From NCBI RefSeq assembly GCF_001565895.1, contig NZ_LSNE01000003.1:1197867-1241453 (forward strand): DNA of 43,587 bases. The letters run 5' to 3'. The notes beneath the pieces were generated by a model. It had not been told where the DNA came from. It saw only the letters and a list, made by a program, of their open reading frames with translations, and searched no databases. The position numbers and the translations under genes were made by a program. Each line of letters opens with the position of its first letter. The first letter of the stretch is position 1. This document shows, piece after piece, positions 1,961-43,587 of the stretch. The DNA is from Paraglaciecola hydrolytica (GTDB lineage: Bacteria; Pseudomonadota; Gammaproteobacteria; Enterobacterales; Alteromonadaceae).

Positions 1961-2647
1961 GTGATTTCACTGTTAAATTTAAGCTTTGCACTTATTGATC
2001 TGTGTTTATTAGTGTATTTGTTAAAAATGCCACTGCCCAAACAAGCCATCATACAACTGCCTCGCGTATTTATCTGTGCTCTGCTGTGTGGCATGACCTA
2101 CGACAACCTCGTGGTCGCAAGCGGTTATTGGTTTATACAAGAAAGCTGGTTTGCCACCATTAATATTCCACGTTTTTATCTACATGTATTAGTGCTGCCG
2201 TTTTTGAGTTTATTTACCTACGCGATTATTCGCCAAAGTGGCATCGCACTTGGAAAAAGCCCCCTGTTTTTTGCTTTTTGTCTGCTCGTCACCATTAGCG
2301 CTTTGGCGTATGGCATCAGTCATGAACTCGTCAACTTACAACTAGTGGAAAAAAGCGCCTTTGGCATCACTCGTATGTCTAATGCCAATTCATCTGCGCC
2401 TATGGCTACCATAGTCACGAATATAGTGACTTTGATACTGGCAGGATATTTATGGCGAAAAAGTGGCTGGAAAATACTGTTTTTAGGCGCGCTGTTTATT
2501 TTTGTGGTCAATGGCGCATCGGCCACCCAAGCCTGGGGATTTCTTGCTGGTAACTTTGCTGAAATCATCTTTGTTTTGAGCCTGATAACAACACTTAAGC
2601 ATTTTTCGACGAGCACAACAGGAGCGACACAAGAGGCTACAAAATGA
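1961..2647 (+). CDS. Multi-pass membrane protein of unknown function
   Basis: A 228-residue protein with about six to seven hydrophobic segments (roughly residues 3-22, 32-50, 65-85, 95-115, 145-160, 170-190 and 195-215), so an integral inner-membrane protein. It starts at a GTG preceded by a GGGG ribosome site (CTGGGGATAAACCAC). I recognise no family. It overlaps the next gene by four bases (ATGA), so it is translationally coupled to a membrane-anchored alpha/beta hydrolase and probably serves the same process, for instance substrate passage or anchoring. A candidate operator lies 71 bases upstream. It is comparable in size and style, but not obviously in sequence, to the orphan membrane protein at 37637-38317 in the same island. 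Confidence 0.7.
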   Translation: MISLLNLSFALIDLCLLVYLLKMPLPKQAIIQLPRVFICALLCGMTYDNLVVASGYWFIQESWFATINIPRFYLHVLVLPFLSLFTYAIIRQSGIALGKSPLFFAFCLLVTISALAYGISHELVNLQLVEKSAFGITRMSNANSSAPMATIVTNIVTLILAGYLWRKSGWKILFLGALFIFVVNGASATQAWGFLAGNFAEIIFVLSLITTLKHFSTSTTGATQEATK

Positions 2648-3603
2648 GAGCCAGGCAGATTATTACCTTTCCTTTAAAGCTGCTAGCCATCGTCGTTGTT
2701 GTCTATGTTTTATGGGTATTGATTGTTTACCGTGATATTCCTGTTGACGAACTTGAACGTCGTTATGGCGGTGATAACTTGCAAACCGTTGATATCGACG
2801 GGGTAAAACTACGTTATAAAGTTGAGGGGCAAGGCCCTGTCTTAGTCTTGATCCACTCCCACTTTTATACCATGCGCCAATGGCAACCTTGGGTTGATGT
2901 ACTCAAACATGATTTCACTGTTGTGCGTTTTGATTTGACTAGTCATGGTCTGACGGGACCTGATCCCAGTCATGACTATTCTCGGCAGCGTAGTAGTGAT
3001 TTAGTCGCTGGTTTGTTGGATCACTTAACCATTCAACAAGCCAGTATAGTGGGCTCATCGACCGGCGCAGGGATAGCTTACACCTTTGCGGCAGCCCATC
3101 CTGAACGTATACAAAGCCTAGTATTAATGAATGCACCGGGCATGCCTAAAACCTCTAATAAATACATGGATCGTACCTTACCCAGTTGGGGTGGTTTTAT
3201 TTTCTATTTATTGCCAGAGGGACTATTTGAAGCATTTCTTAAAGCTCCCATTATCGACGATAGCTTAGTCACCCCAGAGCTACTGACTGAATTTTTTGAT
3301 ATGTATCGCCGCGACGGTAATCGTATGGCTGAGTATGAACGCATGAGTAGTTACGATAAAAATGACATTACACCTTTGTTGGCGCAAATAACGGCACCCA
3401 CGCTAGTGATGTGGGGTGAAGAAAACCCACAATTACCGGTTGAGCATGTTGCGCTGTTTATGAAAAAACTCACTGCTAGTCCTTCAGTACAAAAGATTAT
3501 TTATCCCAATATTGGCCATGTCATCCCGCTAGAAATCCCTGTGCAAGGCGCGCTGGATCTCGCCACATTTGTACAAGCTCAAACAGGTAATAGTCATCCA
3601 TAA
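2644..3603 (+). CDS. Membrane-anchored alpha/beta hydrolase (candidate tetrapyrrole-ester hydrolase)
   Basis: A 319-residue alpha/beta-hydrolase-fold protein. Residues about 9-29 form one hydrophobic anchor (LKLLAIVVVVYVLWVLIVY), so the enzyme domain probably faces the periplasm. The core runs from about residue 48: the oxyanion strand VLVLIHSHF (66-74), the nucleophile elbow GSSTG with Ser139, an acidic position near MWGEENPQ, and the His of NIGHVIPLE near the end. Members of this fold hydrolyse esters, lactones, epoxides or C-C bonds, and pheophytinase of chlorophyll breakdown is one of them. The neighbouring PaO-, NYC1- and RCCR-like genes make a dephytylase or methyl-esterase role attractive, but the substrate is inference. 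It is coupled by an ATGA overlap to the upstream membrane protein and lies 12 bases before a second hydrolase. Confidence 0.8.
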   Translation: MRARQIITFPLKLLAIVVVVYVLWVLIVYRDIPVDELERRYGGDNLQTVDIDGVKLRYKVEGQGPVLVLIHSHFYTMRQWQPWVDVLKHDFTVVRFDLTSHGLTGPDPSHDYSRQRSSDLVAGLLDHLTIQQASIVGSSTGAGIAYTFAAAHPERIQSLVLMNAPGMPKTSNKYMDRTLPSWGGFIFYLLPEGLFEAFLKAPIIDDSLVTPELLTEFFDMYRRDGNRMAEYERMSSYDKNDITPLLAQITAPTLVMWGEENPQLPVEHVALFMKKLTASPSVQKIIYPNIGHVIPLEIPVQGALDLATFVQAQTGNSHP

Positions 3604-3615
3604 GGCACTAACTCC

Positions 3616-4653
3616 ATGTTAAAAACTGCAATAAAAACGAGTGTCGCCCTATTCATTACTTGCTTAATTGTGGCTTGTAGTGAGCCCGTATTGCCAAGCG
3701 CACAAGCTCTAGACGCAGACCAAAAACAACTGGCTCTCATTCCTCATATAGAGGTTGGCCCTTTAACTGTGGTTACCGGGCGATCACTGTTGTTTTCTGT
3801 GCCTGAATCTAAAAGTGATAATGAACGCGAACTTGAACTTAGTGTGTTTTTTCCTGAGCAAGGGCAAGATTACCCTGTCTTGTTTTTCTCTCACGGCAAT
3901 TGGTCAACTAAAGATAAATACGATCAATTGATCACTTTTTGGGTGAGTCATGGTTATGTGGTTATCGCGCCAAATCATCGAGATTGCTGCTCAATGGCCA
4001 GTGGTATTTTTAATAGTTTACGTTATGGCAACTTTGCTTTGATTGAACACAGAGTCAAAGATTTTACCTTTTTAATCGACCATTACACTCAGCTTGAAAC
4101 TAGCTATCCTAAGCTCAAGGGCAAAGGTGACATTAACAACATCGCGCTAGTAGGCCATTCCTTTGGTGCCTTTACCGCCCAACAGTTTGGTGGCGCTGGC
4201 ACCTACAATACCGATGATAAACTCTATCATTTTTATGGTGACGACAGAGTCAAGGCCATAGTGGCGATTTCTCCGCCTGGCCCTATGTTTGAAGAAATTA
4301 CCGCACAAAGTTGGCAGAACTTAAGTACGCCAACTTTTGTATCTACCGGCACCTGGGACGTGGATAGCCATTTTTTTACTGAATGGCAATTACACCTGAT
4401 GTCCTTTGAAACTGCCCTGCCCCACGATAAATATGCTTTAGTCACCCAAGGTGCTGATCATTATTTGGGGAATTTGATCTGTCGTCCTGAACGGGATGTC
4501 GCCCCTCAACAAGACGCATTAACCATGTTAAATGCCAGCTCAACTACCTTTTTGGATGCTTATTTAAAAGGTGATGACAAAGCCAAAAGCTTTTTGCAAA
4601 GTGCACAACTTGAGCAGCTCACTGGCGGTTTTTCGGTGCTTAGATACAAATAA
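3616..4653 (+). CDS. Lipoprotein alpha/beta hydrolase of the chlorophyllase/PAF-acetylhydrolase type
   Basis: A 345-residue secreted hydrolase. The N-terminus is a lipoprotein signal peptide ending in the lipobox IVAC (Cys21), so the mature enzyme is probably lipid-anchored in the cell envelope. The core shows VLFFSHGNWSTKDKY (89-103), YVVIAPNHRDC (114-124), the nucleophile elbow GHSFGA with Ser182, and a C-terminal His in GADHYLGNL. This pattern (strand-SHG, AP-HR, GHS-G) is that of the dienelactone-hydrolase-like group that includes plant chlorophyllase (GHSRGG elbow) and platelet-activating-factor acetylhydrolase. It is the third gene of the 1961-4653 operon and ends at a strong terminator. 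A role in releasing phytol from chlorophyll or pheophytin outside the cytoplasm is plausible from context and unproven; a general lipid or xenobiotic esterase is the alternative. Confidence 0.75.
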   Translation: MLKTAIKTSVALFITCLIVACSEPVLPSAQALDADQKQLALIPHIEVGPLTVVTGRSLLFSVPESKSDNERELELSVFFPEQGQDYPVLFFSHGNWSTKDKYDQLITFWVSHGYVVIAPNHRDCCSMASGIFNSLRYGNFALIEHRVKDFTFLIDHYTQLETSYPKLKGKGDINNIALVGHSFGAFTAQQFGGAGTYNTDDKLYHFYGDDRVKAIVAISPPGPMFEEITAQSWQNLSTPTFVSTGTWDVDSHFFTEWQLHLMSFETALPHDKYALVTQGADHYLGNLICRPERDVAPQQDALTMLNASSTTFLDAYLKGDDKAKSFLQSAQLEQLTGGFSVLRYK

Positions 4654-4732: not shown

Positions 4733-6394
4733 TCAGTTCATTATGGTAGGACAGAGTTTTTCAAGTTGGACTTTGGCGCTTACTTGATCGCCCGTTAATG
4801 CAAAACCTAAAACTTGCTCTCCTTGTCGGTAAACCGCTTTAATACCCCGTTCAGACTGCTGCTCTATTACCCAAGTTCCAGCCACCAAACTGCCGTCGCT
4901 TTGTCTGGCAGGTGGATTAACCACCACCGGAAATAGCGTGGTTTTTACCATCACCGGCATGGCGGGATAACTCACTAGAGTTTTTTCACCCGCTAAGGTT
5001 TTAGCTAAGGCACGCACCTGAGCCATTAAGGGCAAGATGTAAAACAACACGTGATTTTCAACTTGGGCACAATCACCAATGGCATAGACGTCGGTAACAC
5101 TGGTTTGCAAGCTTTTATCGGTCACAATGCCACGTTCTACGCGAATGTTAGCCGCTTTTGCTAGGCTGATATTAGGCCTTACACCGATGGCGGATAACAC
5201 CAGATCAGCTTGAATTTGGGTATTGTTTTCTAATGTGGCGATGATGCCGGATTGGTGTTGCTCAATTTGCTTAACTACGGTACCAAAATGGAAATTGGCG
5301 CCCGCTTTACGTAAGGCATTTTCAACCGATAGTGAGGCCTGCTGGGGCAATAAACTTGTTAATACGCTTGGCATAGGATCAACCACATCAATCTGATAAC
5401 CCGCTTGCAGCAAGTCGTTGGCGTATTCACTGCCAATTAAACCTGCACCAATGATCAGGATCTTTTTCTTATGTTTAGCAATAGTTCTAAATTTTGCGTA
5501 ATCCAATAAATTGTTAACGCTATAAACATGCTGCAAGCCATTGCCTGTTAGTGGTGGCTGAATACAACTTGCCCCAGTGGCAAACACGAGTTTGCTATAG
5601 GCTTGTGAGCCATTTTGCCCCACAGTAATGGACTTGTTTGTGGTATCAACCGCAGTCACTTGGCTGAAAATATGAATTTGCACTTTGTACTGCTCAGCCA
5701 TGTGTTCGGCGCTTTGACTGGCAAGTTCAGCGGCTGTCTTGTTTTTAGCAAAACCGGTAGATAACAAAGGCTTAGAATAAAAGCTGCCGTCATCGATGGT
5801 ATACAAGTAAATCGCGGTGTTTAGCTCAGTTTTACGGATCTCTTTAACCAAGTTATAGGCCGCGAGTCCACTACCAATAATTACAATAGGCGCTTGTGAT
5901 GGATCAAAAGCGTTTAACTCTGACTCAGCGCTAACGGCGACTTCAACTGTGGAAACTGAAGAGGCAGCGTGTTCAGTTGTGACTTGCACCCGTTTAGTTT
6001 CGAGCATTTCAAAATCTGATTTTTCAACCCCACACTCCGGGCAGACCCAGTCTGCTGGAATATCTTGCCACTTAGTACCAGGAGCAATGCCATCTGCTGG
6101 CCAGCCTAATGATTCATCATAAATCCAAGCACAAACCTGACATTCCCAAATACTGTATTCATACACCTCATTGGTTGCAGTCACAGGGTTTTTAACTATA
6201 GAACTTGCTGGAATGGCGTCACTGATTGCTATCATCTCAAAATCGCTTTTAGCGACACCACATTCAGGGCAAACCCAATCATTAGGGATGTCTTCCCATC
6301 GAGTACCAGATGCTAAGCCTTCTGCTGGACAGCCTTTGGCTTCATCGTAGATCCAAGCACAAACCTGACATTCCCAAATTTTATATTGTGACAT
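4733..6394 (-). CDS. Double rubredoxin-rubredoxin:NAD(P)+ reductase fusion
   Basis: A 553-residue electron-transfer protein. It carries two rubredoxin domains, residues 3-55 (Cys9, Cys12, Cys42, Cys45) and 81-131 (Cys85, Cys88, Cys118, Cys121), each with CxxC and CPECG iron ligands. A linker leads to a flavoprotein reductase from about 168: FAD site IVIIGSGLAAYN, a second Rossmann motif ILIIGAGLIGSEYA for NAD(P)H, and the FAD-contacting DVYAIGDCAQ. In alkane degraders separate rubredoxins and reductase (AlkG, AlkT) feed the hydroxylase AlkB; no AlkB is in this window. The gene is divergent from the PaO-like Rieske oxygenase and shares its regulatory region, so I infer it supplies that oxygenase, and perhaps the RCCR-like reductases, with electrons. 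Two tandem rubredoxins fused to one reductase is an unusual arrangement. The start is supported by GAGGTAG just upstream. Confidence 0.92.
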   Translation of the reverse strand: MSQYKIWECQVCAWIYDEAKGCPAEGLASGTRWEDIPNDWVCPECGVAKSDFEMIAISDAIPASSIVKNPVTATNEVYEYSIWECQVCAWIYDESLGWPADGIAPGTKWQDIPADWVCPECGVEKSDFEMLETKRVQVTTEHAASSVSTVEVAVSAESELNAFDPSQAPIVIIGSGLAAYNLVKEIRKTELNTAIYLYTIDDGSFYSKPLLSTGFAKNKTAAELASQSAEHMAEQYKVQIHIFSQVTAVDTTNKSITVGQNGSQAYSKLVFATGASCIQPPLTGNGLQHVYSVNNLLDYAKFRTIAKHKKKILIIGAGLIGSEYANDLLQAGYQIDVVDPMPSVLTSLLPQQASLSVENALRKAGANFHFGTVVKQIEQHQSGIIATLENNTQIQADLVLSAIGVRPNISLAKAANIRVERGIVTDKSLQTSVTDVYAIGDCAQVENHVLFYILPLMAQVRALAKTLAGEKTLVSYPAMPVMVKTTLFPVVVNPPARQSDGSLVAGTWVIEQQSERGIKAVYRQGEQVLGFALTGDQVSAKVQLEKLCPTIMN

Positions 6395-6531: not shown

Positions 6532-6549
6532 TGACATATAATTATATCA
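6532..6549. promoter_or_regulatory. Candidate operator, TGACATA-N4-TATATCA
   Basis: TGACATA-TAAT-TATATCA: one mismatch from the perfect palindrome, extended by flanking AA and TT. It lies 137 bases upstream of the rubredoxin reductase start and is one of a pair in this divergent region. Confidence 0.65.
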
Positions 6550-6639: not shown

Positions 6640-6657
6640 TGATATATTATTATGACA
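6640..6657. promoter_or_regulatory. Candidate operator, TGATATA-N4-TATGACA
   Basis: TGATATA-TTAT-TATGACA, extended by flanking AA and TT. It is the second site of the pair and lies 217 bases upstream of the Rieske oxygenase start. Confidence 0.65.
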
Positions 6658-6874: not shown

Positions 6875-8095
6875 ATGTTAATGAACTTGTGGTACGTTGC
6901 AGAATGGTCAGAAACGGTTAAAGACAAACCCGTAAAAACCAAATTAGTGGGGCAAAATCTGGTTTTATTCCGTGATCTAGAAGGCAAAGTAAAATGCATG
7001 GCCGATGTTTGTTTGCACCGCGGCGGCTCCCTCTCTGGTGGTTGGGTTAATGAAAAACGCGACTGTGTGGTATGTCCTTATCATGGCTGGGAATATAACG
7101 GCTCAGGCAAATGCCAAAAAATCCCTTCTGAAGGTGACGAGTTCCAAGTACCTAAACGATTCAAAGTAGATGCCTACGACGTAGAAGAAAAATACGGCAT
7201 GATTTGGGTATTTATGGGCGACTTACCCGCTGAAGAGCGCTTCCCTATTCCACCCTTACCAGAATTTGGTGATGAAAATTGGCGCGGACTAAAAACTGAA
7301 TTTAGCTGGAAAGCCGAAGCCTCTCGTGTGGTTGAAAACGGGATTGATATCGCCCATGCCTCTTTTGTACACCCAGTATTTGGTTACCCAAGTACCGCTG
7401 AAGACAACTTTATTGAAGATGTGGAAAAACATGAATGGTGGGGAAAATCCACTAACGTTATGTATCCGCCACAATTAAAAGGTGGCTTTTTAGGCTGGCG
7501 TAATTTTTTACGTAAAGACAAACAAGAAACCAAAGTTCATCCCGAATGGCATTTGCCCGGCATGATAGTCAGAATACAAATTGATATCCGACCTGGTTGG
7601 CACATTGTTATGTTTGATGCCAATACCCCAGTTGATGAACATACCACCCGTACTTTTGCGTGGCAATTCAGAAGTTTCTTTAAATCAAGATTGTTTGACA
7701 AAGGTTCATTAAAACGTCTAAAAACCATCTTGTTAGAAGATGCCACCATAGTGCAAGACTCTCAGCCCTATTATTTACCGGAAACCTTGGCCAACGAGGT
7801 ATCAGTGAAGTCAGATAAATTTATGAGTACCTTCCGTATGGCGCGACGTAAATTGATCGAAGAAAAAGGTTGGCAAATTGATACTAAAGCTCGTGACGAA
7901 CATCAGGGCAAAAAAGTGTTAACCATTGCCTCTCCGGGCAGACGACAAGCCCTAATTGACGGTGATGGTTGGGTATTTGAGCAAATGCCTACGGTTGCAC
8001 CAATCAAAAAAGCCAGTGTTAAAAATGAATTTGAACAACAGGTTGATACCTTAACCACCGACTCGGTTAATTCAAAAGACGTGATTATTGCCTAA
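6875..8095 (+). CDS. Rieske non-haem iron oxygenase resembling pheophorbide a oxygenase
   Basis: A 406-residue oxygenase subunit. The N-terminus (NLWYVAEWSE) leads into a Rieske [2Fe-2S] domain with ligands Cys46-x-His48 and Cys67-x2-His70. The catalytic domain has ENGIDIAHASFVHP (154-167), giving His161 and His166 as mononuclear iron ligands and Asp158 as the bridging acid; the third ligand is probably an Asp in LLEDATIVQDSQP (287-298). The single-component layout and the C-terminal half suggest the PaO/CAO/Tic55-like branch rather than two-subunit ring dihydroxylases. The C-terminal CxxC of the plant enzymes is missing. PaO opens the chlorin macrocycle of pheophorbide a; the co-occurrence with RCCR- and NYC1-like genes supports a similar substrate, but a vanillate-type or other demethylase activity remains possible. 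The AAGGGG site at 6860 fits the ATG at 6875, with the ATG at 6881 as an alternative. Confidence 0.8.
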   Translation: MLMNLWYVAEWSETVKDKPVKTKLVGQNLVLFRDLEGKVKCMADVCLHRGGSLSGGWVNEKRDCVVCPYHGWEYNGSGKCQKIPSEGDEFQVPKRFKVDAYDVEEKYGMIWVFMGDLPAEERFPIPPLPEFGDENWRGLKTEFSWKAEASRVVENGIDIAHASFVHPVFGYPSTAEDNFIEDVEKHEWWGKSTNVMYPPQLKGGFLGWRNFLRKDKQETKVHPEWHLPGMIVRIQIDIRPGWHIVMFDANTPVDEHTTRTFAWQFRSFFKSRLFDKGSLKRLKTILLEDATIVQDSQPYYLPETLANEVSVKSDKFMSTFRMARRKLIEEKGWQIDTKARDEHQGKKVLTIASPGRRQALIDGDGWVFEQMPTVAPIKKASVKNEFEQQVDTLTTDSVNSKDVIIA

Positions 8096-8173: not shown

Positions 8174-8764
8174 TTAAACCAAGTGTTGCCAAATACTGGC
8201 TTGAAACTGCGCTTCATGTACATCGCCCACTAGCCCTCTGGGATCTAATTCATGGCGCTTAGTACAGCTGGGCGACAAACGCACCCCTTTCGCTGTCAGC
8301 GTCCGTGTAGCTTGGCCATTGCGATATAACACAGTATGGCGAGTACGATGGCCAGGTGCGGTTACTATAATAAAGTCAGGCTCCATATAGACATTAGTTG
8401 CCTGATTTAGCTGTCTGGCAGTAAAGGTTAAAATTCCCGGCCCGCCAGACATACCGACATTCTCATAACTACCCGGCCCCATAGGATCAAAGACTAATAA
8501 TCCATCGACTAACTTACCGGTAAAAGTCTTGGCTAGCGCCGGACGTCCACGAAAATGCACATTAGTGATTTTAAAATTTAAACCATCAAAGTCGATGTAC
8601 ACAATATTATCAAAAGGCGACAAACCTGGTGTGCCACTACCCGCTTGGGTATCGTCAATTAAGGGTGAGCCGTCTAAATTAAACAACTCAACACTATCGT
8701 GCCAAGTACCGCGTAATTGCATTAGGGTGTGAGCCACACTGCCCACTGGAAAAACAGTTGTCAT
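8174..8764 (-). CDS. Orphan soluble protein, probably beta-rich
   Basis: A 196-residue cytosolic protein with no signal peptide or membrane span. It has many alternating hydrophobic, Gly- and Thr-rich stretches, opening with LRGTWHDSVELFNLDG and ending with a strand pair around YRNGQATRTLTAKGVRLSP. This suggests a small beta-barrel, perhaps calycin/lipocalin-like, as in proteins that hold hydrophobic ligands; that is only a fold impression. I do not recognise the family. The start has an AGGAC ribosome site. The gene diverges from the NYC1-like dehydrogenase with an island palindrome 43 bases upstream, so it very likely belongs to the regulon. A tetrapyrrole-binding or chaperone role is speculation. 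Confidence 0.65.
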   Translation of the reverse strand: MTTVFPVGSVAHTLMQLRGTWHDSVELFNLDGSPLIDDTQAGSGTPGLSPFDNIVYIDFDGLNFKITNVHFRGRPALAKTFTGKLVDGLLVFDPMGPGSYENVGMSGGPGILTFTARQLNQATNVYMEPDFIIVTAPGHRTRHTVLYRNGQATRTLTAKGVRLSPSCTKRHELDPRGLVGDVHEAQFQASIWQHLV

Positions 8765-8885: not shown

Positions 8886-9683
8886 ATGAAAACAGTCATT
8901 ATAACAGGTAGTACCCGTGGCATTGGCCGAGGTTTAGCTGAGAATTTTTTGAAACGCGGCTGCAAGGTTGTGATCACTGCTCGTAAGCAAGATCAAGTTG
9001 ATGCTGTCGTCGCTGATTTAGCTAGCCAATATGGCCAAACTAACGTCACTGGCATTGCCTGTGATGTTCAGCAACATGAGCATTTAGAGGCACTGTGGCA
9101 ACATGCCGTGAAAACCTATACTAGTATCGATATTTGGATAAATAATGCTGGTATGAGCTTGCCACGTAAGCCTTTGGAACAGCAAGCCGTCAGCGACATC
9201 AGTAATATTATTAATACTAATTTAACTGGCGTGATCCTCGCCACCAGTGTGGCACTTAAAGGCATGAAAGCCCAAAATCATGGTCAAATATGGAATATGG
9301 AAGGTTTTGGCAGTAACGGCGCCACTCAACCAGGTATGGCGATTTATGGTGCCACTAAACGCGCGGTCACTTACTTAAATAAATCCCTGCAAAAAGAAGT
9401 AAAAGGCACTCAAGTGCAAGTCAACACCTTAAGCCCAGGCATAGTGGTAACCGACTTGCTGATCGGTGATTACGACACCGCATCGCCAGAATGGTTAAAA
9501 GTGAAAAAGATATTTAATATCCTCGGTGACAAGGTTGAAACCGTAACACCATGGTTAGTAAACGGCATTCTTGCAGCCAACAAATCTGGTGCAACAGTAG
9601 CGTGGTTAACGGGGGGCAAAGCCTTCTGGCGTTTTATGACAGCAGCATTTAACAAACGTGATTTGTTTGCTGATGTAGGCTGA
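8886..9683 (+). CDS. Short-chain dehydrogenase resembling chlorophyll b reductase (NYC1/NOL)
   Basis: A 265-residue classical SDR. It has the NAD(P) motif GSTRGIG (8-14), NNAG (86-89), and the active site Ser143, Tyr154 and Lys158 (YGATK). The catalytic-Ser segment reads NMEGFGSNG (137-145), which by memory matches the NMDGAGSGG of plant NYC1/NOL. The stretch after it (LSPGIVVTDLL, then KIFNILGDKVETV) follows the same proteins further than general SDRs do. NYC1/NOL reduce the 7-formyl group of chlorophyll b; here a formyl or keto substituent on a tetrapyrrole is the natural guess. An ACGGAG ribosome site precedes the ATG. It is monocistronic, controlled from the divergent region with the palindrome at 8808, and has a paralogue at 15776-16594. 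A general SDR on another carbonyl is the alternative. Confidence 0.78.
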   Translation: MKTVIITGSTRGIGRGLAENFLKRGCKVVITARKQDQVDAVVADLASQYGQTNVTGIACDVQQHEHLEALWQHAVKTYTSIDIWINNAGMSLPRKPLEQQAVSDISNIINTNLTGVILATSVALKGMKAQNHGQIWNMEGFGSNGATQPGMAIYGATKRAVTYLNKSLQKEVKGTQVQVNTLSPGIVVTDLLIGDYDTASPEWLKVKKIFNILGDKVETVTPWLVNGILAANKSGATVAWLTGGKAFWRFMTAAFNKRDLFADVG

Positions 9684-11139: not shown

Positions 11140-11140
11140 G

Positions 11141-13524: not shown

Positions 13525-13547
13525 GATTTTACCTTGTGTAATTACAC

Positions 13548-30155: not shown

Positions 30156-30224
30156 AGAGTTTCTTATTGGTTGCACAGAGTATTAAGGTAAAAAAGAGGC
30201 GTAATTGAAGTTTTTAGCTAGGCC

Positions 30225-32422: not shown

Positions 32423-32440
32423 TGATATAACTTTATATCA
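32423..32440. promoter_or_regulatory. Operator, perfect palindrome TGATATA-N4-TATATCA
   Basis: TGATATA-ACTT-TATATCA, with symmetry extended by flanking AA and TT to 9-bp arms. It lies 38 bases before the CoA transferase start and is one of two perfect copies that define the motif. Confidence 0.75.
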
Positions 32441-34493: not shown

Positions 34494-34511
34494 TGACCTA
34501 ATGCTATATCA
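34494..34511. promoter_or_regulatory. Candidate operator, TGACCTA-N4-TATATCA
   Basis: TGACCTA-ATGC-TATATCA, 57 bases before the start of the isomerase/decarboxylase-like gene. The right arm is perfect, the left has two changes. Confidence 0.6.
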
Positions 34512-34769: not shown

Positions 34770-35543
34770 ATGACATTTGAAGAACTGTTAAAAGATCCTC
34801 GTTTGAAACACGCGCTAAAAAGCGATGTGCCAACGCCTTTGTATCATCAGGTTTATTTATTTTTAAAAGAAAAGATTCACTTAGGTGAGATCCCCTTCGG
34901 CGACAAAATGCCAACAGAACATCAATTATCTGATGTGTTTGGTGTTTCTAGAATTACCGCTAAACGCGCCATGGATGAGTTAGCCGAAGAAGGCTACATA
35001 AGTCGTCGTCGTGGCAAAGGCTCCCATGTCACATACAAACATCGAGCAGAACAACTCGCTGCGCCTATTTCAGGTTTATTAGAAAATCTGGCCGTGATGG
35101 GCCGCGAAACCCAAGTGCAGTCGTTGATGTTTCGCAGTGCAATTCCTCCTCTTGATATCCAAGAGCGTTTTGGCATCGATGGCAATACTGAACTCATTCA
35201 ATCTCAACGTATTCGTTTATCAGACGGTGTACCCTTTGGATATTACGGCAGTTGGACCAGAGACATAGGCGGTTTGTACTGTGAAGAAAACTTATTAAAA
35301 ATGTCGCGTATGGAGATTTTTAGAAAGTCAGGTATTGAGATTGAACTTGGCAAAGTAAAACAATCTGTTACTGCAACCTTGTCCAATGTGGATACCGCCA
35401 TGCATTTAAGCATTCCAACGGGCAAACCCTTGTTAGTGCTTGACCGTTCAATGTATGACAAAAATGGCGAATTATTTGATCACATGTATGCGGTTTACCG
35501 CCCTGACCAATATCAATTTGAGATGGAATTTTCGATGAAATAG
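34770..35543 (+). CDS. GntR-family transcriptional regulator (HutC/UTRA type)
   Basis: A 257-residue regulator. The N-terminal winged helix-turn-helix (about residues 21-88: PLYHQVYLFLKEKIHLGEIP, KMPTEHQLSDVFGVSRITAKRAMDELAEEGYI, then RRRGKGSHV) is the GntR DNA-binding domain. The rest (about 95-255) is a UTRA ligand domain, with ELIQSQRIRLSDGVPFGYYGSW and the closing DHMYAVYRPDQYQFEMEF typical of the HutC subfamily. Such proteins are usually repressors released by a pathway metabolite. It is the only single-component regulator in the window and diverges from an island operon, with palindromes on both sides. I infer that it binds the TGnnnTA-N4-TAnnnCA motif. No ligand can be deduced; an organic acid or a tetrapyrrole product would fit. 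Confidence 0.92.
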   Translation: MTFEELLKDPRLKHALKSDVPTPLYHQVYLFLKEKIHLGEIPFGDKMPTEHQLSDVFGVSRITAKRAMDELAEEGYISRRRGKGSHVTYKHRAEQLAAPISGLLENLAVMGRETQVQSLMFRSAIPPLDIQERFGIDGNTELIQSQRIRLSDGVPFGYYGSWTRDIGGLYCEENLLKMSRMEIFRKSGIEIELGKVKQSVTATLSNVDTAMHLSIPTGKPLLVLDRSMYDKNGELFDHMYAVYRPDQYQFEMEFSMK

Positions 35544-36269: not shown

Positions 36270-37586
36270 TTATTTTGCTATCACTTGTTCGTTCAATGGA
36301 ATGATTTTGTGTCTCACAATTAAACCCCACACAAATACGACCAAACCACAAAATCCTACAAATACAAAGGGCCCTGAGTGATCCCAGTGATCATACAAAT
36401 AACCGCCGACCACACTAGAAACTAAGATACCAATCGCTCCACATAAATTAAAAATACCAATCACAGCGCCGCGTTTTTCTTTGGGTGTTTGTTGAGAGAT
36501 TAATACGCCCGAGGTGATAATGGCGCCAATTTCACTTAAACCAATAATCACTACCACCACTATCATGCCGCCACCAAAAGGGTCATTAACCAAGTAAGTG
36601 CTGCAATAACCGATAAAGGTAATACACAAGGCTATCAATAACGCCGAAACTCGATTGATCTTATCCGTTAAGATGCCAAAAAATGGAGCGCCAAATAAAG
36701 CCACACTTTGCGCAATCGCCACTATGATGCCAGCTTTTTTGAGTGCGTCGGCCGCTGACATGCCCGCTTCTTCAGTACCATAATTAGATAACCATAAGGT
36801 CATAAATGCCCCCACTATGGTTAAATTAGCGCGAGATACAAAGGCCGCACCGTAAGCTAAGGCAATACCAGGTTCGCGGGCGGCTTTGATGCCATCTAAC
36901 ATCATCGTCGAAATAGCTTGTTTGTGAACGTTGACGGCAGGTTGATGGGCTTTCAAACCACGAATGGATAATAAGCCCACCACAACGGCAAAAACTGCCA
37001 CGATGATATAAGTTTTATGACCTGCATCAATAGCCGACATGCCCTGTTCTTGAAATACCGCAGGTAAACGTAACAATACAAACAGGGCAATAACTGCTCC
37101 AATGCCGTTACATACACCTTGCAATCCAGCTGCTTTACCGCGATTAATGTCCTTAGCGTAATCAGCCAGTAAAGTAACAATCATGCAGGTGCCAGCGGCA
37201 ATACCTAGACCGTAAATAATACGGTAAATAATCAGCTCATTAACACTTTTGGCCTGTGGGTAGAGATAAAGCGCCGCGGCAACTAATAAAAAACCAATGA
37301 CAATAATGGTACGGCGACCGATCTTATCCGATAAAGCTCCCCATATGCCCACCGAAAAAATGATGGCCATTTCGCCCCAAAAATTTAATTTTCCGCTGAC
37401 AACACCTTGCTCTGCCTTAGGAATATTCATGATTTCGCTAAACAAAAAAGGCTGGAAAGCATTAATAAAAGTGGCTAACAAAATACAAGCAATACAGGTC
37501 AAATAGAAAGTCGACATATGCCACGAATTGACCCCCTCAGAGAGTTGGATCCCGAGATATTTTTTTTCTATTCTTGAGTCAGACAT
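36270..37586 (-). CDS. MFS transporter, paralogue of the one between the RCCR-like genes
   Basis: A 438-residue major facilitator with 12 predicted spans. The 2-3 loop motif A is GALSDKIGRRTIIVIGF and a second copy is GILTDKINRVSALLIAL. Sequence parallels the transporter at 13548-14846 along its length (for example ADYAKDINRGKAAGLQGVCN against ADYSHNTTRGKANGMQGAVA, and QQTPKEKRGAVIGIFNLCGA against EQAPKDRKGAVIGLFGVAGA), so they form a paralogue pair unlike the TetA-like pair. It is downstream of an orphan membrane protein (50-base gap), and the shared divergent region upstream has a perfect operator. Ligand unknown. Confidence 0.9.
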   Translation of the reverse strand: MSDSRIEKKYLGIQLSEGVNSWHMSTFYLTCIACILLATFINAFQPFLFSEIMNIPKAEQGVVSGKLNFWGEMAIIFSVGIWGALSDKIGRRTIIVIGFLLVAAALYLYPQAKSVNELIIYRIIYGLGIAAGTCMIVTLLADYAKDINRGKAAGLQGVCNGIGAVIALFVLLRLPAVFQEQGMSAIDAGHKTYIIVAVFAVVVGLLSIRGLKAHQPAVNVHKQAISTMMLDGIKAAREPGIALAYGAAFVSRANLTIVGAFMTLWLSNYGTEEAGMSAADALKKAGIIVAIAQSVALFGAPFFGILTDKINRVSALLIALCITFIGYCSTYLVNDPFGGGMIVVVVIIGLSEIGAIITSGVLISQQTPKEKRGAVIGIFNLCGAIGILVSSVVGGYLYDHWDHSGPFVFVGFCGLVVFVWGLIVRHKIIPLNEQVIAK

Positions 37587-38362: not shown

Positions 38363-38380
38363 TGATATATTGTTATATCA
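38363..38380. promoter_or_regulatory. Operator, perfect palindrome TGATATA-N4-TATATCA
   Basis: TGATATA-TTGT-TATATCA in the divergent region, 45 bases before the membrane-protein gene (minus) and 104 bases before the amidase-like gene (plus). It is the second perfect copy of the motif; the two differ only in the central four bases. Confidence 0.75.
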
Positions 38381-38484: not shown

Positions 38485-40167
38485 ATGATCCGAGTTGCAG
38501 CTGCCCAATTTGCCGTTACCAATAATGTGCAAGACAATTTAAAAACCTGTGTGCGCATGATACAAGAAGCTGCAAAGTGTTCACCTGACCTGATCGTGTT
38601 ACCTGAATTTATCAATCATAATTCTTGGTATGATAATCAAGAGCATTGTTTTGATGTGGCGATAGCCTTGGATGGTGAATTTTTATCTAGCATTAAAACC
38701 GCGGTTATCGCCGCTAAAGCCTATGTGGTCATCAACGCTACTGTGCAACGCCCTGGAGTTGGACAACATCAATGTACTGGCACCAGTTTATTAATTTCTC
38801 CCCAAGGTGAGTTACTCGGCCAAAACAACAAACAAGTCTTAGTCGGTCATGAAAATGACTTTTTAGACATTGCCGACTGTGAAGGCCCCATTATTGATAC
38901 GCCTATTGGCAAGTTAGCCATGTACTCCTGCATGGACGGGGTAATCAATGAAACTCCGCGTGGTTTGTCTTTACGTGGTGCACAAATTTTATGTAACAGC
39001 TTAAATTCTTTTGCCCTAGATGAAGGTGATTTACATATTCCGGTTAGAGCGGCAGAAAATAAAGTTTTTATTGTTGCGGCCAATAAAGTTGGGCCACTTA
39101 TCCCCGAGCCATTATTGGCTCCTGTATCAGAAGCCACCAATATTCCAGTACACTTTTTAAATGGTGCTGGCGACAGCCAAATTGTTGCACCAGACGGCAC
39201 TGTATTGGCCATTGCCGGTAAATCAGAACAAGTCATCTGGGCCGACATTGATCCGCAATTAGCCGATAGTAAAACTCGTCCCGATGGCACTGATATATTT
39301 AAACAGCGCCGCCCTGAGCTTTATCAAAGCTTGGGTGACGATCCTGCCAAACAAACTCTAGCTGAATTTACAGGTGCCATCGATTTACAGGCCTCGGCCA
39401 TCAGTATTATGGCTAAAGGGCACGCCGCGCTAGATGAAGTCGTGGCCGCGATTACCGCACTACCAGAGAGTAAATTAATCTGTTTGCCTGAATTATTTTG
39501 GCTAGACGATATAGCTCAAGCCCATAAAGAACTTGCAATGAGCTATGAGGTCGTCAAACGCATTCAACAAGCCTGTGTTGACAACCAACTAGTGGCAACC
39601 AGCATAATTGGCAAAATTAACAATCAACTGGCCCACTGTGCGGTATTGATTAGTCATCGTGGAATAGAACTTCAGCAAGGCCAAGTACATTTTAGTCAGC
39701 GTTTTTCGTGGTCCGCCTTGGCCGATAATTTTGTCACCTATCAGAGTATTTATGGCTGTATCGGCCTAGCCTTAGAAGACGATGCCATCTATCCCGAAAG
39801 CTTTCGTTTGATCGCCATGCAAGGCACCGAAGTGGTACTGGCACCTGTGTCTCAACAAGAAAAATGGCAATCCACTACCGGCTTGCTTGAACGTGCCTCA
39901 GAAAACCGCGTGAATATCATCTCTGCCAGTCAGCATTCACAAGATAATGTCATTTGTAGCCTGCAAAAAGAATTTACCATTATGACGCCATGGCAAGAGC
40001 GTAAATTTGACGGGCTGTTAAGTGCGGGAGTGCAAGTCAGCGGTGTGCAGGATTGCAAGATCACCAGTGCGCAAATTCACCCGCAAGCGGCGCATAACAA
40101 AGTATGTTCACAAAACACGGATTTAATTGCCAATCGCCCGTGGAAACTCATGCAAGCCATGCTGTAA
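38485..40167 (+). CDS. Tandem nitrilase-fold amidohydrolase (active N-half, degenerate C-half)
   Basis: A 560-residue protein made of two carbon-nitrogen-hydrolase domains; single-domain members are 270-300 residues. The N-terminal half (about 1-275) has the full triad: Glu41 (IVLPEF), Lys116 (LLGQNNKQ) and Cys149 (MYSCMDG). The C-terminal half (about 300-550) repeats the fold and keeps the LPELFWLDD glutamate, but at the nucleophile it reads GCIGLALEDDAIYPES, where the Cys of the usual ICxDxxxPE motif is missing. The first half should hydrolyse an amide or nitrile to acid and ammonia; the second is probably structural or regulatory. Opening of a maleamate-type amide from a pyrrole ring is a plausible job in this island. 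It leads the plus-strand run 38485-43587 and has an operator 104 bases upstream. Confidence 0.85.
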   Translation: MIRVAAAQFAVTNNVQDNLKTCVRMIQEAAKCSPDLIVLPEFINHNSWYDNQEHCFDVAIALDGEFLSSIKTAVIAAKAYVVINATVQRPGVGQHQCTGTSLLISPQGELLGQNNKQVLVGHENDFLDIADCEGPIIDTPIGKLAMYSCMDGVINETPRGLSLRGAQILCNSLNSFALDEGDLHIPVRAAENKVFIVAANKVGPLIPEPLLAPVSEATNIPVHFLNGAGDSQIVAPDGTVLAIAGKSEQVIWADIDPQLADSKTRPDGTDIFKQRRPELYQSLGDDPAKQTLAEFTGAIDLQASAISIMAKGHAALDEVVAAITALPESKLICLPELFWLDDIAQAHKELAMSYEVVKRIQQACVDNQLVATSIIGKINNQLAHCAVLISHRGIELQQGQVHFSQRFSWSALADNFVTYQSIYGCIGLALEDDAIYPESFRLIAMQGTEVVLAPVSQQEKWQSTTGLLERASENRVNIISASQHSQDNVICSLQKEFTIMTPWQERKFDGLLSAGVQVSGVQDCKITSAQIHPQAAHNKVCSQNTDLIANRPWKLMQAML

Positions 40168-40210: not shown

Positions 40211-40942
40211 ATGTCACAACTATCTTTACCCAGAGAATTATCCGACAGCACAGTAGATAAAATCGTCACTAAGTTTGCCATGCAAGAAGTCCTCGAAGCT
40301 GACGGTGGTGCTTATATGACCTTGATTAGTCACATGCCCATGGCCCAAGGTGAAGTGGGTAAAGTCAGAGTGTTTGAAGGTGGTCCACTGCAAAAATTGG
40401 TCACTTGCTCAATAGTGGTGCCACAAATTCACTTGGACTCACACATGTTGTACGGTTTTATGCCAGCAAATAGTGCAGTGCCCCACTTCACCTTAGATTC
40501 GGTAAAAGCCGGTGAGCATTATGCTTTTCACTTAGATATGACTCCTCGTGTCGATTTGGGCGCCCATACCGATTATATGAATGAAGTATTTTTGCCACTG
40601 ACCGAAAAATTTGATGCGGCTGAAGCCATTGCAGGCATAGAGCGCGCGCACATTTCTCCGCGCCAACGCGCCATTATGTCGCCGTGGATGTTAGTGCATC
40701 GCGCCAGTGAAGAGGCCTTCAAAACTTTGTTTTCCCATGCTGAAGGTTACCTGCATTATTGGTACGACTTAGTGGAAAACGGCGTAACCAGCCCAGTATC
40801 TGGCGACGAATTAGCTGCCAGAGATAAGGCCAACCGCGCTGCCATTTTCAATCCAGAAATCGATCCCGTGTGGGCACGTGTCGGGGGTTTAATTGGTAGC
40901 GATGCCAGCGAACAATTGCGCGCCTTACTGCGTGGCGAATAA
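40211..40942 (+). CDS. RCCR-family (red chlorophyll catabolite reductase-like) protein 3
   Basis: A 243-residue protein, the shortest of three RCCR-like paralogues. The shared core is VPHFTLDSVKAGEHYAFHLDMTPRVDLG (90-117), aligning with VPHLVIVFGTVPQLFCYCDYTPRKNL of the copy at 14906-15733. The C-terminal DELAARDKANRAAIF (199-213) keeps Asp205 at the position of the plant catalytic Asp. The N-terminal region is shorter, and the tyrosine-rich helix after PR is altered (DYMNEVFLPL). It sits between the amidase-like and acyl-CoA-dehydrogenase-like genes, far from the other two copies, and so links the tetrapyrrole half of the island to its lower pathway. Reduction of a smaller or later bilin-type intermediate is an inference. 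The family assignment is by eye and less certain than for copy 2. Confidence 0.68.
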   Translation: MSQLSLPRELSDSTVDKIVTKFAMQEVLEADGGAYMTLISHMPMAQGEVGKVRVFEGGPLQKLVTCSIVVPQIHLDSHMLYGFMPANSAVPHFTLDSVKAGEHYAFHLDMTPRVDLGAHTDYMNEVFLPLTEKFDAAEAIAGIERAHISPRQRAIMSPWMLVHRASEEAFKTLFSHAEGYLHYWYDLVENGVTSPVSGDELAARDKANRAAIFNPEIDPVWARVGGLIGSDASEQLRALLRGE

Positions 40943-40999
40943 GCAAGATAAAGTAACAAACTAGTTAACCATAAGAACTAAAACGAGTTGGGGAAAAAT

Positions 41000-42268
41000 A
41001 TGAAATTAACCGCCGAATATTTTGTCGATAATATGAATGCCGATGAAAAAAAGCGCGCACAAATAGTCGAAAGCGTATTGCCTGCAATCAAGGCCGCAGC
41101 AAGTGAAGTAGATCGCAGCGGCGAATTTCATTTACCTCATGTTAAAACCCTTAGTGATTCTGGGCTACTCGGTTTGATCATTCCTAAAGAATACGGCGGT
41201 TTAGGTGGCTCCTTGCGTGATATGGCCGCCGCGACTTTTGCTTTAGGTAGCGTTTGCCCTTCCACTGCCATGTGTTTCTTTTTTCATTGCTCTTCTGCCT
41301 CGCGCGGACTCTTAGCCTTAGAAGCCCTCGAAGCAGGTTTATTCAATTCAGAAGATGCAATTGCCGTTAAAGCCTTTGCGGAAAAAGTGCTCTACACCAT
41401 GGGCCGTGATGGCCGTTGGTTAGCCAACTTTGCCAGCGAAGCGGTTAAATCTGAAACCGCCGCTATTACCATATCCACTAAAGCCACAAAAGTGCAAGGT
41501 GGTTATCTGTTAAATGGGGTTAAAGCCTTTGGTTGTGCGACCGGCATTGCCGATCAATACCTAGTGACTGCCAGCCTTGATGGCTACGAAGATGCCAGTG
41601 GCTTAGCCACCTTTTTTGTTACGCGTGATGCTGCCGGTGTCAGCGAAAGACAAAAGTGGGACGCCATCGGCATGCGTGGCTCTGCCACTCACGGTTTAAT
41701 TTTAAAAGATGTATTTGTCGCCGATGTTGACTCTTTAGCTGTGCCGGCCGCTTTTGTACGTTGTATGCAAATGAGTCGTGGTAGTTTTGTCGGTAATCAA
41801 TTAGCCAGCATTGCTGTGTATTTAGGTCAAGCTTGGTCTATTTACCAACAAACCTTAGCCACTATAACGGCGGCTAAATTTGGTGACTCAGGTAAGTCCA
41901 TCGCCAGCTCACCCATGCATCAACAACTTATAGGGCAAATGATGTGCGACTTAGAAACCGCCATGTTGTGGTTACGTCGTCAACTCGAATTAGAAACCGC
42001 TCAACCTGAAATTTTACCCAAACAAGAAGTGGTGAAGCGTTGGAGATTGTGTAAAGGCGTAGTGTCGGAAGCAGGCTTTAATATCGCCGTTACCGCGCTC
42101 AAATGTACGGGTACTACAGGCACCGGATTTTCCAACCCAAGCGCTCACGGTTTACGTGAAATGGCCATGGCCTTGGTGCAAGCATTTCCAGCCGAACGCG
42201 GACGATTAATGGCAGCGCAAATGGAAGTGGAAGGTGCCGAACAAAACCAATTTGGCGTAAAAAGCTAA
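41000..42268 (+). CDS. Acyl-CoA-dehydrogenase-family flavoenzyme
   Basis: A 422-residue protein with the three-domain acyl-CoA dehydrogenase layout. The N-terminal helices include LSDSGLLGLIIPKEYGGLGGS, the middle beta-domain has YLLNGVKAFGCATGIADQYLV and WDAIGMRGSATHGLILKDVFV, and the C-terminal helices end with LKCTGTTGTGFSNP and HGLREMAMALVQAFPAERG. Phrases such as GMRGSATHGLILKDV occur both in dehydrogenases and in the flavin-dependent monooxygenase branch (DszC/HpaB-like), so oxidation or hydroxylation cannot be separated by eye, and no catalytic Glu could be placed. I chose the ATG at 41000, 6 bases after GGGG, over an in-frame TTG at 40988. It lies 57 bases after RCCR-like copy 3 and just before the aldehyde dehydrogenase. 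Confidence 0.85.
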   Translation: MKLTAEYFVDNMNADEKKRAQIVESVLPAIKAAASEVDRSGEFHLPHVKTLSDSGLLGLIIPKEYGGLGGSLRDMAAATFALGSVCPSTAMCFFFHCSSASRGLLALEALEAGLFNSEDAIAVKAFAEKVLYTMGRDGRWLANFASEAVKSETAAITISTKATKVQGGYLLNGVKAFGCATGIADQYLVTASLDGYEDASGLATFFVTRDAAGVSERQKWDAIGMRGSATHGLILKDVFVADVDSLAVPAAFVRCMQMSRGSFVGNQLASIAVYLGQAWSIYQQTLATITAAKFGDSGKSIASSPMHQQLIGQMMCDLETAMLWLRRQLELETAQPEILPKQEVVKRWRLCKGVVSEAGFNIAVTALKCTGTTGTGFSNPSAHGLREMAMALVQAFPAERGRLMAAQMEVEGAEQNQFGVKS

Positions 42269-42314
42269 GGCTTGTCACATAATTTAATCCAAAATTAAAG
42301 GTAGAGGCTTTAAC

Positions 42315-43587
42315 TTGATAACTGCATTACCAGAACAACAAAATTACATCGACGGACAATGGCAACTGCCTAAGCTCGATTTGCACAGGGCTTTATGCAA
42401 CGCCAATAACGGCCAGCCCATAGGCCAGCAATTGAGTAGTGATGAACAGCAAATAAACAGCGCTATTCGAAGTGCCGCTGCAGCCTTTGTCAATTGTTCG
42501 TGGTCTGAGTTGAGTTACACCGAACGTGCTGACTATTTAGATAAAATCGCCTCAAATTTAAGCCAATATGCTGAGCCAATAGCCATTGCCGATGCCCTAC
42601 AAACTGGCGTCATTATTAGCCTGACCAAACAGTTTGCCAAGGTTTGCGGGCTGGCTTTTAGTGGCGCCGCCGCTTTGTTGCGCTCTTTACCAGAAGAACA
42701 AGAATTAGTGGGTAACACTAATAATAAAATCATAATGCAGCGTTTGCCCTTGGGTGTTACGGCGATTATCGCCCCGTGGAATGCGCCTTCTGGTATTGCT
42801 TGTCACAAATTAGCCAGTGCTTTAGCTGCCGGTTGTACCGTCATTTTTAAACCCTCTGAATGGGCGGCGGGTTCAGCCCAAGCTATTGCACAGGCCATAG
42901 TCGCCGCAGATTTGCCCCATGGCGTTTTTCAAATGTTACAAGGTGATGGCGCAGTGGGTGCGACCTTATGTGCCGACGACAGGGTGGCTGCGGTCTCTTT
43001 TACTGGCGGCGCTTTGGGTGGCCAAGCGGTTGGCAGTAGCTGTGGCGCCAAAATTAAACCAGCGCAACTCGAACTGGGCGGTAATAACGCCTTAGTGGTC
43101 TTAGCAGATGCTGACTTAGACGCTGCTGCCGCAGGTGTGCTCACCGGGCTAACCACCTTAAATGGTCAGTGGTGCCGTGCCTTAGGTCGTTTGATTGTGC
43201 ACGAGTCGGTATATGATGAACTGCTTAGCTTAATCAAACAAAAAATGGCGCAGATTGTGATTGGTGAATCTACCGATACCAGCAGTCAGATGGGGCCGTT
43301 AGTGCACCAAGGGCATTTACAGCATGTGCAACAACGTGTGACTGACTATGTCAAACTAGGGGGCAAAGTACTGCAAAACACAGTCTTACCCGCGCACCTC
43401 ACAGGCTGGTTTCATGCCCCTACCCTGATCACTGGTTTAAGTGGAGAGCAATGCTTAGAAGAAATTTTTGGCCCCGTAGCCACGGTACATACATTTACTG
43501 ACGATCAACAAGCCACAGCTTTGGCCAATCAAACCGTTTATGGTTTGGCGGCTTATGTCTTTGGTGCAGAACAACACGCTTGGCAAG
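42315..43587 (+). CDS. NAD(P)-dependent aldehyde dehydrogenase (C-terminus cut by window edge)
   Basis: The frame is open from a TTG start at 42315 to the right edge, giving 424 residues of an enzyme usually about 480 long. Key residues are visible: the oxyanion Asn156 (IAPWNAPSG), the cofactor-binding Lys179 (FKPSEWA), SFTGGALGGQAVG for the dinucleotide, the general base Glu253 (LELGGNN) and the nucleophile Cys287 (GQWCRALGR). GQWC replaces the common GQ-C-x context but keeps the cysteine. AGAGG lies 8 bases before the TTG, and no in-frame ATG competes. It oxidises an aldehyde to an acid; in this operon it may finish a side chain released from the pathway. It is 46 bases after the flavoenzyme gene. 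Confidence 0.92.
   Translation, partial: MITALPEQQNYIDGQWQLPKLDLHRALCNANNGQPIGQQLSSDEQQINSAIRSAAAAFVNCSWSELSYTERADYLDKIASNLSQYAEPIAIADALQTGVIISLTKQFAKVCGLAFSGAAALLRSLPEEQELVGNTNNKIIMQRLPLGVTAIIAPWNAPSGIACHKLASALAAGCTVIFKPSEWAAGSAQAIAQAIVAADLPHGVFQMLQGDGAVGATLCADDRVAAVSFTGGALGGQAVGSSCGAKIKPAQLELGGNNALVVLADADLDAAAAGVLTGLTTLNGQWCRALGRLIVHESVYDELLSLIKQKMAQIVIGESTDTSSQMGPLVHQGHLQHVQQRVTDYVKLGGKVLQNTVLPAHLTGWFHAPTLITGLSGEQCLEEIFGPVATVHTFTDDQQATALANQTVYGLAAYVFGAEQHAWQ

Follow-up and report, generated by a model that had tools for sequence, protein, structure and literature searches.

A 43,587-nt stretch of the Paraglaciecola hydrolytica genome (contig NZ_LSNE01000003.1 of GCF_001565895.1, positions 1,197,867-1,241,453 of the forward strand; hereafter the window) carries a gene island which, judging from the protein families encoded, is probably a regulon by which a chlorophyll-type tetrapyrrole (phaeophorbide a being the likeliest) is broken down aerobically to central metabolites. 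The gene set is common to rare but distantly related bacteria and is jointly controlled, and it looks like a system that opens chlorophyll-like pigments and passes the pieces on to metabolism; a tetrapyrrole substrate is likely, with chlorophyll the best guess. The island continues rightward past the window by at least 22 kb, up to a second LeuC/LeuD pair, and its total of ~64 kb is 1.2% of the 5.2 Mb host genome (20 contigs). A sequence-only reading of this DNA had proposed a bacterial parallel to plant chlorophyll breakdown, and every gene that it named was confirmed as an open reading frame at its position (Table 1).

Reductases, Rieske oxygenase and ester hydrolases

Three RCC reductase (RCCR)-like proteins had been read by eye, and a hidden Markov model search placed two of them, RCCRa and RCCRb, above the curated Pfam cut-off for RCC_reductase (PF06405, 24.9 bits; the corresponding cut-offs are 31 for Fe_bilin_red, 26 for Chlorophyllase PF07224 and 28 for PETase). 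A single-sequence search with RCCRa also found Arabidopsis RCCR (E 2.9e-10). RCCRb is a TTG frame and its true start may be internal. The third protein, RCCRc, falls below both reductase cut-offs (PF06405 16.4 bits; Fe_bilin_red 20.0 bits) and was assigned by profile comparison: a profile of RCCRc with five homologues aligned with the RCCR profile at an hhalign probability of 97.6 (E 3.7e-12), four of the six RCCRc family members matched PF06405 at E <= 0.1 (best 7.6e-5), and the only PDB matches at E <= 1 were RCCR and phytochromobilin synthase, all weak (0.015-0.022). By these comparisons RCCRc belongs to the RCCR/bilin-reductase superfamily. In an RCCR tree, RCCRc and RCCRa form firm groups (both 100/100), the grouping of RCCRb and the position of the other sequences are less certain, and Arabidopsis RCCR is unplaced. 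The catalytic acids of Arabidopsis RCCR we take to be Glu154 and Asp291. An Asp at the D290/D291 pair is invariant in 53 of 53 aligned proteins, counted at the D290 column; the D291 column itself holds Pro in 52 of 53 rows and the alignment cannot separate D290 from D291.

The candidate macrocycle-opening enzyme is a Rieske non-haem iron oxygenase matching the Rieske (81.1 bits) and VanA_C (81.6 bits) models above their cut-offs, with intact metal-binding motifs (Cys-His and D..H....H). Both models also matched 13 of 13 homologues scanned, and solved relatives include NdmA, SxtT/SxtDIOX, KshA and DdmC. This gene had been called PaO-like; it does encode a Rieske oxygenase, while the PaO label was dropped, the protein being of the Rieske + VanA_C type and without a PaO match, a placement at the level of family models, no Rieske tree having been built. 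The sequence-only reading had listed a Rieske placement among unrelated demethylases as grounds against itself, and at the family-model level this is the outcome. The enzyme may act like PaO though it is not a member of that family. The fusion of two rubredoxins with NADH:rubredoxin reductase, encoded divergently from it with two operators in between, recurs near Rieske or RCCR genes in L009, L010, L021, L022 and L041 (L-numbers denote loci) and is likely the electron donor of the oxygenase. Elsewhere in three genomes there is a second close Rieske copy (E about 1e-180): G516 (Halioglobus japonicus, L013), G514 (L011) and G515 (L012), in two of which it lies ~21 kb away.

Three membrane- or lipid-anchored esterase-fold hydrolases had also been proposed. 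Each contains G-x-S-x-G and, judged by eye, starts with a membrane or lipoprotein signal. A Chlorophyllase match was confined to the lipoprotein-like protein, its best stretch covering only positions 23-130 of 301; the two membrane-anchored proteins had no PF07224 match at E <= 0.1. The one encoded on the reverse strand adjoins RCCR in 6 of 41 loci (L021, L022, L023, L025, L026, L041). Two short-chain dehydrogenases (SDRs) described as NYC1/NOL-like are indeed SDRs, with generic adh_short matches and NCBIfam scores that, where shown, are below cut-offs; the comparison covered family models, and by these the narrower NYC1/NOL label is no more than possible.

Distribution and co-inheritance

Matches to PF06405 were rare, occurring in 2 of 147 genomes of relatives (own genome included), in none of the 20 other same-genus genomes listed, in 4 of 369 genomes from a spread sample of the class (own included) and in none of 14 control genomes. 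A calycin protein encoded on the right flank was found in 1 of the 369, its own genome. Among named genomes, 41 loci encoding an RCCR relative were found and compared over flanks of up to 10 kb; they come from many gammaproteobacteria, a 'deltaproteobacterium' (labelled Myxococcota), a Rhodospirillales metagenome-assembled genome (MAG), an Acidimicrobiales MAG, Nocardia, Nocardioides and Mumia. The same Rieske type stands beside RCCR in 13 of the 41 and the right-flank calycin protein in 11. At genome level (37 RCCR-holding genomes searched, that of L022 left out), RCCRc at E < 1e-85 and the Rieske type at E < 1e-130, lines set after the gaps had been seen, were present in the same 21 genomes, from gammaproteobacteria to Nocardia and Nocardioides. 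Both genes were on one contig in 19 of these and within 150 bp in nine; 11 of the 21 contributed rows to the query alignments and 10 did not. Because the genomes fall into related groups, independent events are fewer than 21. In the other 16 genomes, nearly all gammaproteobacterial (L019, L020, L024, L028-L037, L039, L040, L045), RCCRc matches reached at best 9.8e-26 (one genome gave none) and Rieske matches at best 8.1e-112, with 2 to 16 Rieske matches each at E <= 1e-60. By eye, the RCCR gene of L019 and that of L029 have two-component genes and a [2Fe-2S] ferredoxin-like gene nearby.

A compact form occurs in Nocardia aurea and Nocardioides soli, where one strand encodes RCCR, an alpha/beta hydrolase, the Rieske oxygenase, RCCRc, a calycin, SDR1 and an Amdase-type protein, the last preceded in Nocardioides soli by an extra membrane protein gene. 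The hydrolase is 52% identical between Nocardia and Nocardioides over 291 aligned positions; it scores 23.0 bits on Chlorophyllase in Nocardia (below 26) and 30.4 bits on PETase in Nocardioides (above 28), which places it broadly in the chlorophyllase/PETase/dienelactone-hydrolase group. Read by analogy, an ester hydrolase, a Rieske oxygenase and two RCCR-fold reductases in one run are the plant reaction order in a bacterial form. The same machinery could instead degrade a ready-made linear tetrapyrrole (phycobilin, bilirubin/biliverdin, or plant or algal phyllobilins), the Rieske enzyme hydroxylating or demethylating without ring opening. RCCR and bilin-reductase folds do work on linear tetrapyrroles, Fe_bilin_red gives sub-cut-off matches to RCCRb, RCCRc and one Nocardioides RCCR, and the lower pathway would be identical for any such pigment. 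However, RCCRa scores well on the RCC reductase model with no Fe_bilin_red match listed at E <= 0.1, and an esterified ring precursor would better account for the Rieske gene overlapping or adjoining RCCRc in Actinomycetota and for the ester hydrolase lying between RCCR and Rieske, so that a linear substrate appears rather unlikely.

A common operator

The operator pattern TGATATA-N4-TATATCA was derived from a dyad common to two intergenic regions, two of the 12 window sites having given it. These 12 sites, at <= 3 mismatches, compare with a mean of 2.5 in shuffled sequence, where none of 100 shuffles reached 12 (largest 7), and the earlier description of the island as regulon-like is borne out. 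All five sites at <= 2 mismatches are intergenic; two of the 12 fall inside genes (5797, 26316). Genome-wide, five sites were found at <= 1 mismatch and three for a reversed control pattern. Four of the five are in the island, one of them ~40 bases upstream of the second LeuC frame on the right flank, and the fifth, with one mismatch, lies between a divergent HMG-CoA-lyase-like (HMGL)/CaiB pair ~80 kb away (G000:C3:1117892, L076:7892). Fourteen gammaproteobacterial cluster loci contained 21 sites at <= 2 mismatches, in 10 loci (shuffle mean 0.45, largest 2, 20 runs), and 15 loci with RCCRa only contained none (1.55 expected). The palindrome marks gammaproteobacterial promoters, and these data support the island being a regulon. 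The site at 34494 is in the upstream region of a gene for a GntR-UTRA protein, which from this gene position is the presumed reader of the operator.

Predicted imide, amide and maleate chemistry

The operator and a candidate lower pathway for imides and maleates are additions to the sequence-only reading. Besides the lower-pathway genes of the window, the right flank encodes an aldehyde dehydrogenase, an alpha/beta hydrolase, two isochorismatase-type amidases, an FAD monooxygenase, two PuuE-like hydrolases, a flavin reductase, a TonB receptor (by eye) and the second LeuC/LeuD pair; the island's two LeuCD pairs are additional to a higher-scoring LeuC elsewhere in the genome. The double carbon-nitrogen hydrolase recurs over most of its length in 8 of 41 loci. 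The PuuE-like proteins (L051:8310-10459) score 86.4 and 99.7 bits on the PuuE model, below its equivalog cut-off of 424.6, and one (L051:9383-10459) matches the PuuE allantoinase structure (E 4.5e-20) and 3qbu (E 3.5e-8); by sequence the pair is related to PuuE-type cyclic amide hydrolases. Both are named in PMC9304392 among the relatives of HxnM, a cyclic imidase that shares 64% identity with a cyclic imide hydrolase homologue of P. putida. Because PuuE-like, maleate-isomerase-family, LeuCD and methylisocitrate/dimethylmalate-lyase relatives occur together, the imide, amide and maleate chemistry of the island would suit alkylated maleimides, the one-ring remnants of tetrapyrroles. One such compound is hematinic acid, described as a product of chlorophyll a both in vitro and in leaves (PMC7318184).

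The island resembles nicotinate catabolism (in Aspergillus with the HxnM imidase, PMC9304392) in imide or amide opening followed by dicarboxylate chemistry, but no pyridine dioxygenase was seen here and branched-chain hydratase and lyase enzymes are present. An improbable alternative is that the cluster serves the catabolism of some unrelated N-heterocycle or aromatic compound, with lower steps like NicC/D/F/E and RCCR-fold proteins recruited for another reduction, for which the NdmA, SxtT, KshA and DdmC types of the solved Rieske relatives could be cited. NicC/D/F/E are enzymes of nicotinate catabolism, which the FAD monooxygenase, alpha/beta hydrolase, isochorismatase and maleate-isomerase-like genes recall. 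Against it stand three separate bilin-reductase superfamily members within a single island, the closeness of the calycin proteins to tetrapyrrole-binding folds, and LeuCD and methylisocitrate-lyase-type enzymes suited to branched maleates. The 2,3-dimethylmaleate branch of anaerobic nicotinate fermentation employs an aconitase-family hydratase and 2,3-dimethylmalate lyase, and the island has the former and a relative of the latter, although here the setting is aerobic, a CoA-transferase and HMGL are present, and these genes are joined to tetrapyrrole-type enzymes.

Proposed pathway

For breakdown of a chlorophyll-type tetrapyrrole we infer the following reactions and substrate. Membrane- or lipid-anchored ester hydrolases would remove phytol and other esters, with MFS and TonB transporters moving material. 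With electrons from the rubredoxin-rubredoxin reductase fusion, the Rieske oxygenase would open or oxygenate the macrocycle in place of plant PaO, and the three RCCR/bilin-reductase-fold enzymes would reduce the open-chain product bond after bond, calycin barrels serving as carriers. SDRs and flavin oxygenases may then help to cut the product to one-ring pieces (hematinic acid, methyl-alkyl-maleimides), whose imide would be opened to an alkylated maleate by PuuE-like imide hydrolases and isochorismatase-/nitrilase-type amidases. A LeuCD-type hydratase or a maleate-isomerase-type enzyme would act on the alkylated maleate and a methylisocitrate-lyase-type enzyme would split the product, hematinic acid giving pyruvate and glutarate, with CaiB and HMGL taking up the remainder; this route for hematinic acid (imide to diacid, hydration, cleavage) is modelled on known reactions of the families. 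GntR-UTRA would repress the promoters through TGATATA-N4-TATATCA until an intermediate releases it. On this scheme the strain would degrade chlorophyll.

Several results weigh against this scheme. PaO (PF08417) was listed for 0 of 13 Rieske homologues at E <= 1, and a genome search at E <= 10 returned nothing at the Rieske locus. Glu154 is not kept in the reductases: over 53 rows its column holds Ala 17, Ile 16, Val 13, Asp 6 and Glu 1 (Arabidopsis), the first three in RCCRa/b/x rows and Asp in the six RCCRc rows, and since this column differs, plant RCCR and its bacterial counterparts may not reduce the same positions. PF07224 is not specific (two genes over cut-off in the genome, at least one in 4 of 14 control genomes), and the matching hydrolase gene recurs beside the cluster only in L041 of the 41 loci. 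Staygreen (PF12638) had no match in the genome, nor in the control genomes. Four actinobacterial and deltaproteobacterial loci scanned had no operators (0 expected). The PuuE-like protein does not belong to a core present everywhere, as strong matches (E < 1e-130) were found in 11 of 11 gammaproteobacterial cluster genomes and 0 of 10 other cluster genomes, two of which have weak ones (3.3e-45, 1.2e-33), and also in 8 of the 16 genomes without RCCRc. The maleimides mentioned in PMC7318184 come from earlier literature, the study itself having detected none, and it ascribes the breakdown products to an oxidative, not an enzymatic, process.

The plant PAO/phyllobilin pathway likewise combines the RCC reductase family with a Rieske oxygenase and with ester hydrolases, and its reactions follow the same logical order. 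It differs in that the island has a VanA-type Rieske enzyme, three reductase-fold proteins rather than one, a bacterial operator, no SGR match (the controls being silent too) and a proposed lower pathway to organic acids, which to our knowledge the plant route lacks. The analogy is one of context and not of common descent for the Rieske step. Most known bilin reductases work in pigment synthesis. Heterotroph clusters with bilin-binding globins exist (PMC10151467), but a biosynthetic cluster making or modifying a bilin-like pigment is very improbable here, as the amidases, lyases, CoA-transferase and two LeuCD pairs, several behind the common operator, look catabolic. Ferredoxin-dependent bilin reductases and the pre-PcyA clusters of that paper share the fold superfamily and have heterotrophic hosts; in contrast, two of the three island proteins pass the RCC reductase cut-off, the setting looks catabolic, and the partners are a Rieske oxygenase and calycins in place of bilin-binding globins and V4R proteins. 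RCCR-like bacterial sequences as such appear there as an outgroup. No bacterial RCCR-Rieske cluster was among the matches listed in open-licence PMC texts, preprints excluded.

The chlorophyll-type reading can be extended to complete bacterial chlorophyll mineralisation, in which VanA-type Rieske ring opening arose independently of plant PaO, three ancient RCCR-fold lineages reduce in series, all pyrrole rings pass via maleimides to pyruvate and acyl-CoA units, and the system spread horizontally between gammaproteobacteria, Myxococcota and Actinomycetota; this fuller version we hold as a tentative possibility, somewhat short of probable. If breakdown of this kind takes place, the genes are markers for bacterial turnover of chlorophyll, the operator and candidate regulator are open to direct test, RCC reductase, familiar mainly from plants, is part of a catabolic system in bacteria, and enzymes become available for chemistry beyond phyllobilins, for which we know of no assigned genes. 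Chlorophyll is made and degraded on a scale of 10^12 kg a year (PMC7318184).

Other features of the window

Table 1. Genes and operator sites of the window (positions in the 43,587-nt stretch)
Feature	Position	Strand	Basis or remark
Weak operator, 3 mismatches	1872..1889	.	Upstream of esterase operon
Membrane protein, first gene of esterase operon	1961..2647	+	Open frame
Membrane-anchored alpha/beta hydrolase	2644..3603	+	Abhydrolase_1
Lipoprotein-like alpha/beta hydrolase, Chlorophyllase model	3616..4653	+	PF07224 43.5 bits; lipobox by eye
Two rubredoxins fused to NADH:rubredoxin reductase	4733..6394	-	Family match; divergent from Rieske gene
Operator, 1 mismatch	6532..6549	.	Between rubredoxin reductase and Rieske genes
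Operator, 2 mismatches	6640..6657	.	Between rubredoxin reductase and Rieske genes
Rieske non-haem iron oxygenase (Rieske + VanA_C), candidate macrocycle-opening enzyme	6875..8095	+	Family match, co-occurrence
Calycin-like barrel protein, adjoins Rieske/RCCR	8174..8764	-	Recurs in 9/41 loci
SDR1, core member also in Actinomycetota	8886..9683	+	Family match, loci comparison
Membrane-anchored alpha/beta hydrolase	11848..12582	-	Abhydrolase_5
RCC reductase family protein RCCRb	12673..13602	-	PF06405 51.2 bits, E 1.3e-13, above cut-off
MFS transporter between two RCCR genes	13548..14846	-	MFS by eye; recurs beside RCCR
RCC reductase family protein RCCRa	14906..15733	-	PF06405 53.0 bits, E 3.7e-14, above cut-off
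Short-chain dehydrogenase 2	15776..16594	-	Family match, loci comparison
NAD-dependent epimerase-like oxidoreductase	16606..17469	-	Family match, loci comparison
Weak operator, 3 mismatches	17513..17530	.	Between epimerase-like and glyoxalase-like genes
Glyoxalase / methylmalonyl-CoA-epimerase-like protein	17670..18155	+	Family match
Conserved protein	18142..18906	+	Recurs in clusters
MFS transporter	18921..20129	+	By eye; recurs in L022, L041
Two overlapping weak operators, 3 mismatches each	20171..20196	.	Upstream of 20221
Arylmalonate decarboxylase / maleate isomerase superfamily protein 1	20221..20997	+	Family match
Methylisocitrate lyase / 2,3-dimethylmalate lyase family	21010..21885	+	Family match
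MFS transporter	26791..27966	-	By eye; recurs in L025, L041
LeuD paralogue, hydratase small subunit	28075..28719	-	Family match
LeuC paralogue, hydratase large subunit	28719..30176	-	Distinct from higher-scoring copy elsewhere in genome
HMG-CoA-lyase-like enzyme	30225..31151	-	Family match
Family III CoA-transferase	31185..32384	-	Best NCBIfam (sub-cut-off) succinate-glutarate CoA-transferase
Perfect operator	32423..32440	.	Upstream of CaiB-HMGL-LeuCD genes
Maleate isomerase / arylmalonate decarboxylase superfamily protein 2	33660..34436	-	Family match
Operator, 2 mismatches	34494..34511	.	Between maleate-isomerase-like gene and gntR
GntR-UTRA regulator, proposed reader of operator	34770..35543	+	GntR 61.8, UTRA 65.0 bits, above cut-offs
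MFS transporter	36270..37586	-	MFS_1 match
Perfect operator	38363..38380	.	Upstream of amidase-RCCRc-flavoprotein genes
Double carbon-nitrogen hydrolase (amidase)	38485..40167	+	PF00795, two stretches
Third bilin-reductase/RCCR superfamily protein RCCRc	40211..40942	+	Profile comparison, co-occurrence with Rieske
Acyl-CoA-dehydrogenase-fold protein, possibly flavin monooxygenase	40988..42268	+	Family match

The predicted structure of the calycin-like protein beside the Rieske gene has a predicted local distance difference test score of 65.7 and best matches to BFA1/DUF3598-type barrels. The conserved protein at 18142-18906 has no Pfam match, and 7 of 41 loci encode a counterpart to most of it at only 24-47% identity; the first protein of the esterase operon matched no family above its cut-off.

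Two stretches of the window stand apart in composition. The 2.2 kb at 9684-11847 (33.8% G+C) encode an extracytoplasmic function-type sigma factor and an apparent anti-sigma protein (by eye), and look like an insertion because the flanking genes, SDR1 and the reverse-strand hydrolase, are neighbours in Rheinheimera L041, their starts listed 816 bases apart. The stretch at 22403-26700 (38.6% G+C), with small genes and, by eye, one methyltransferase-like gene, separates the PrpB-like gene from the MFS gene; in Rheinheimera L125 the matches to these two end 24 bases apart. Left of the island (L050:3394-11108, 14794-15783) are TonB receptors with sigma/anti-sigma-like genes between them, followed by a transposase-like gene (by eye).

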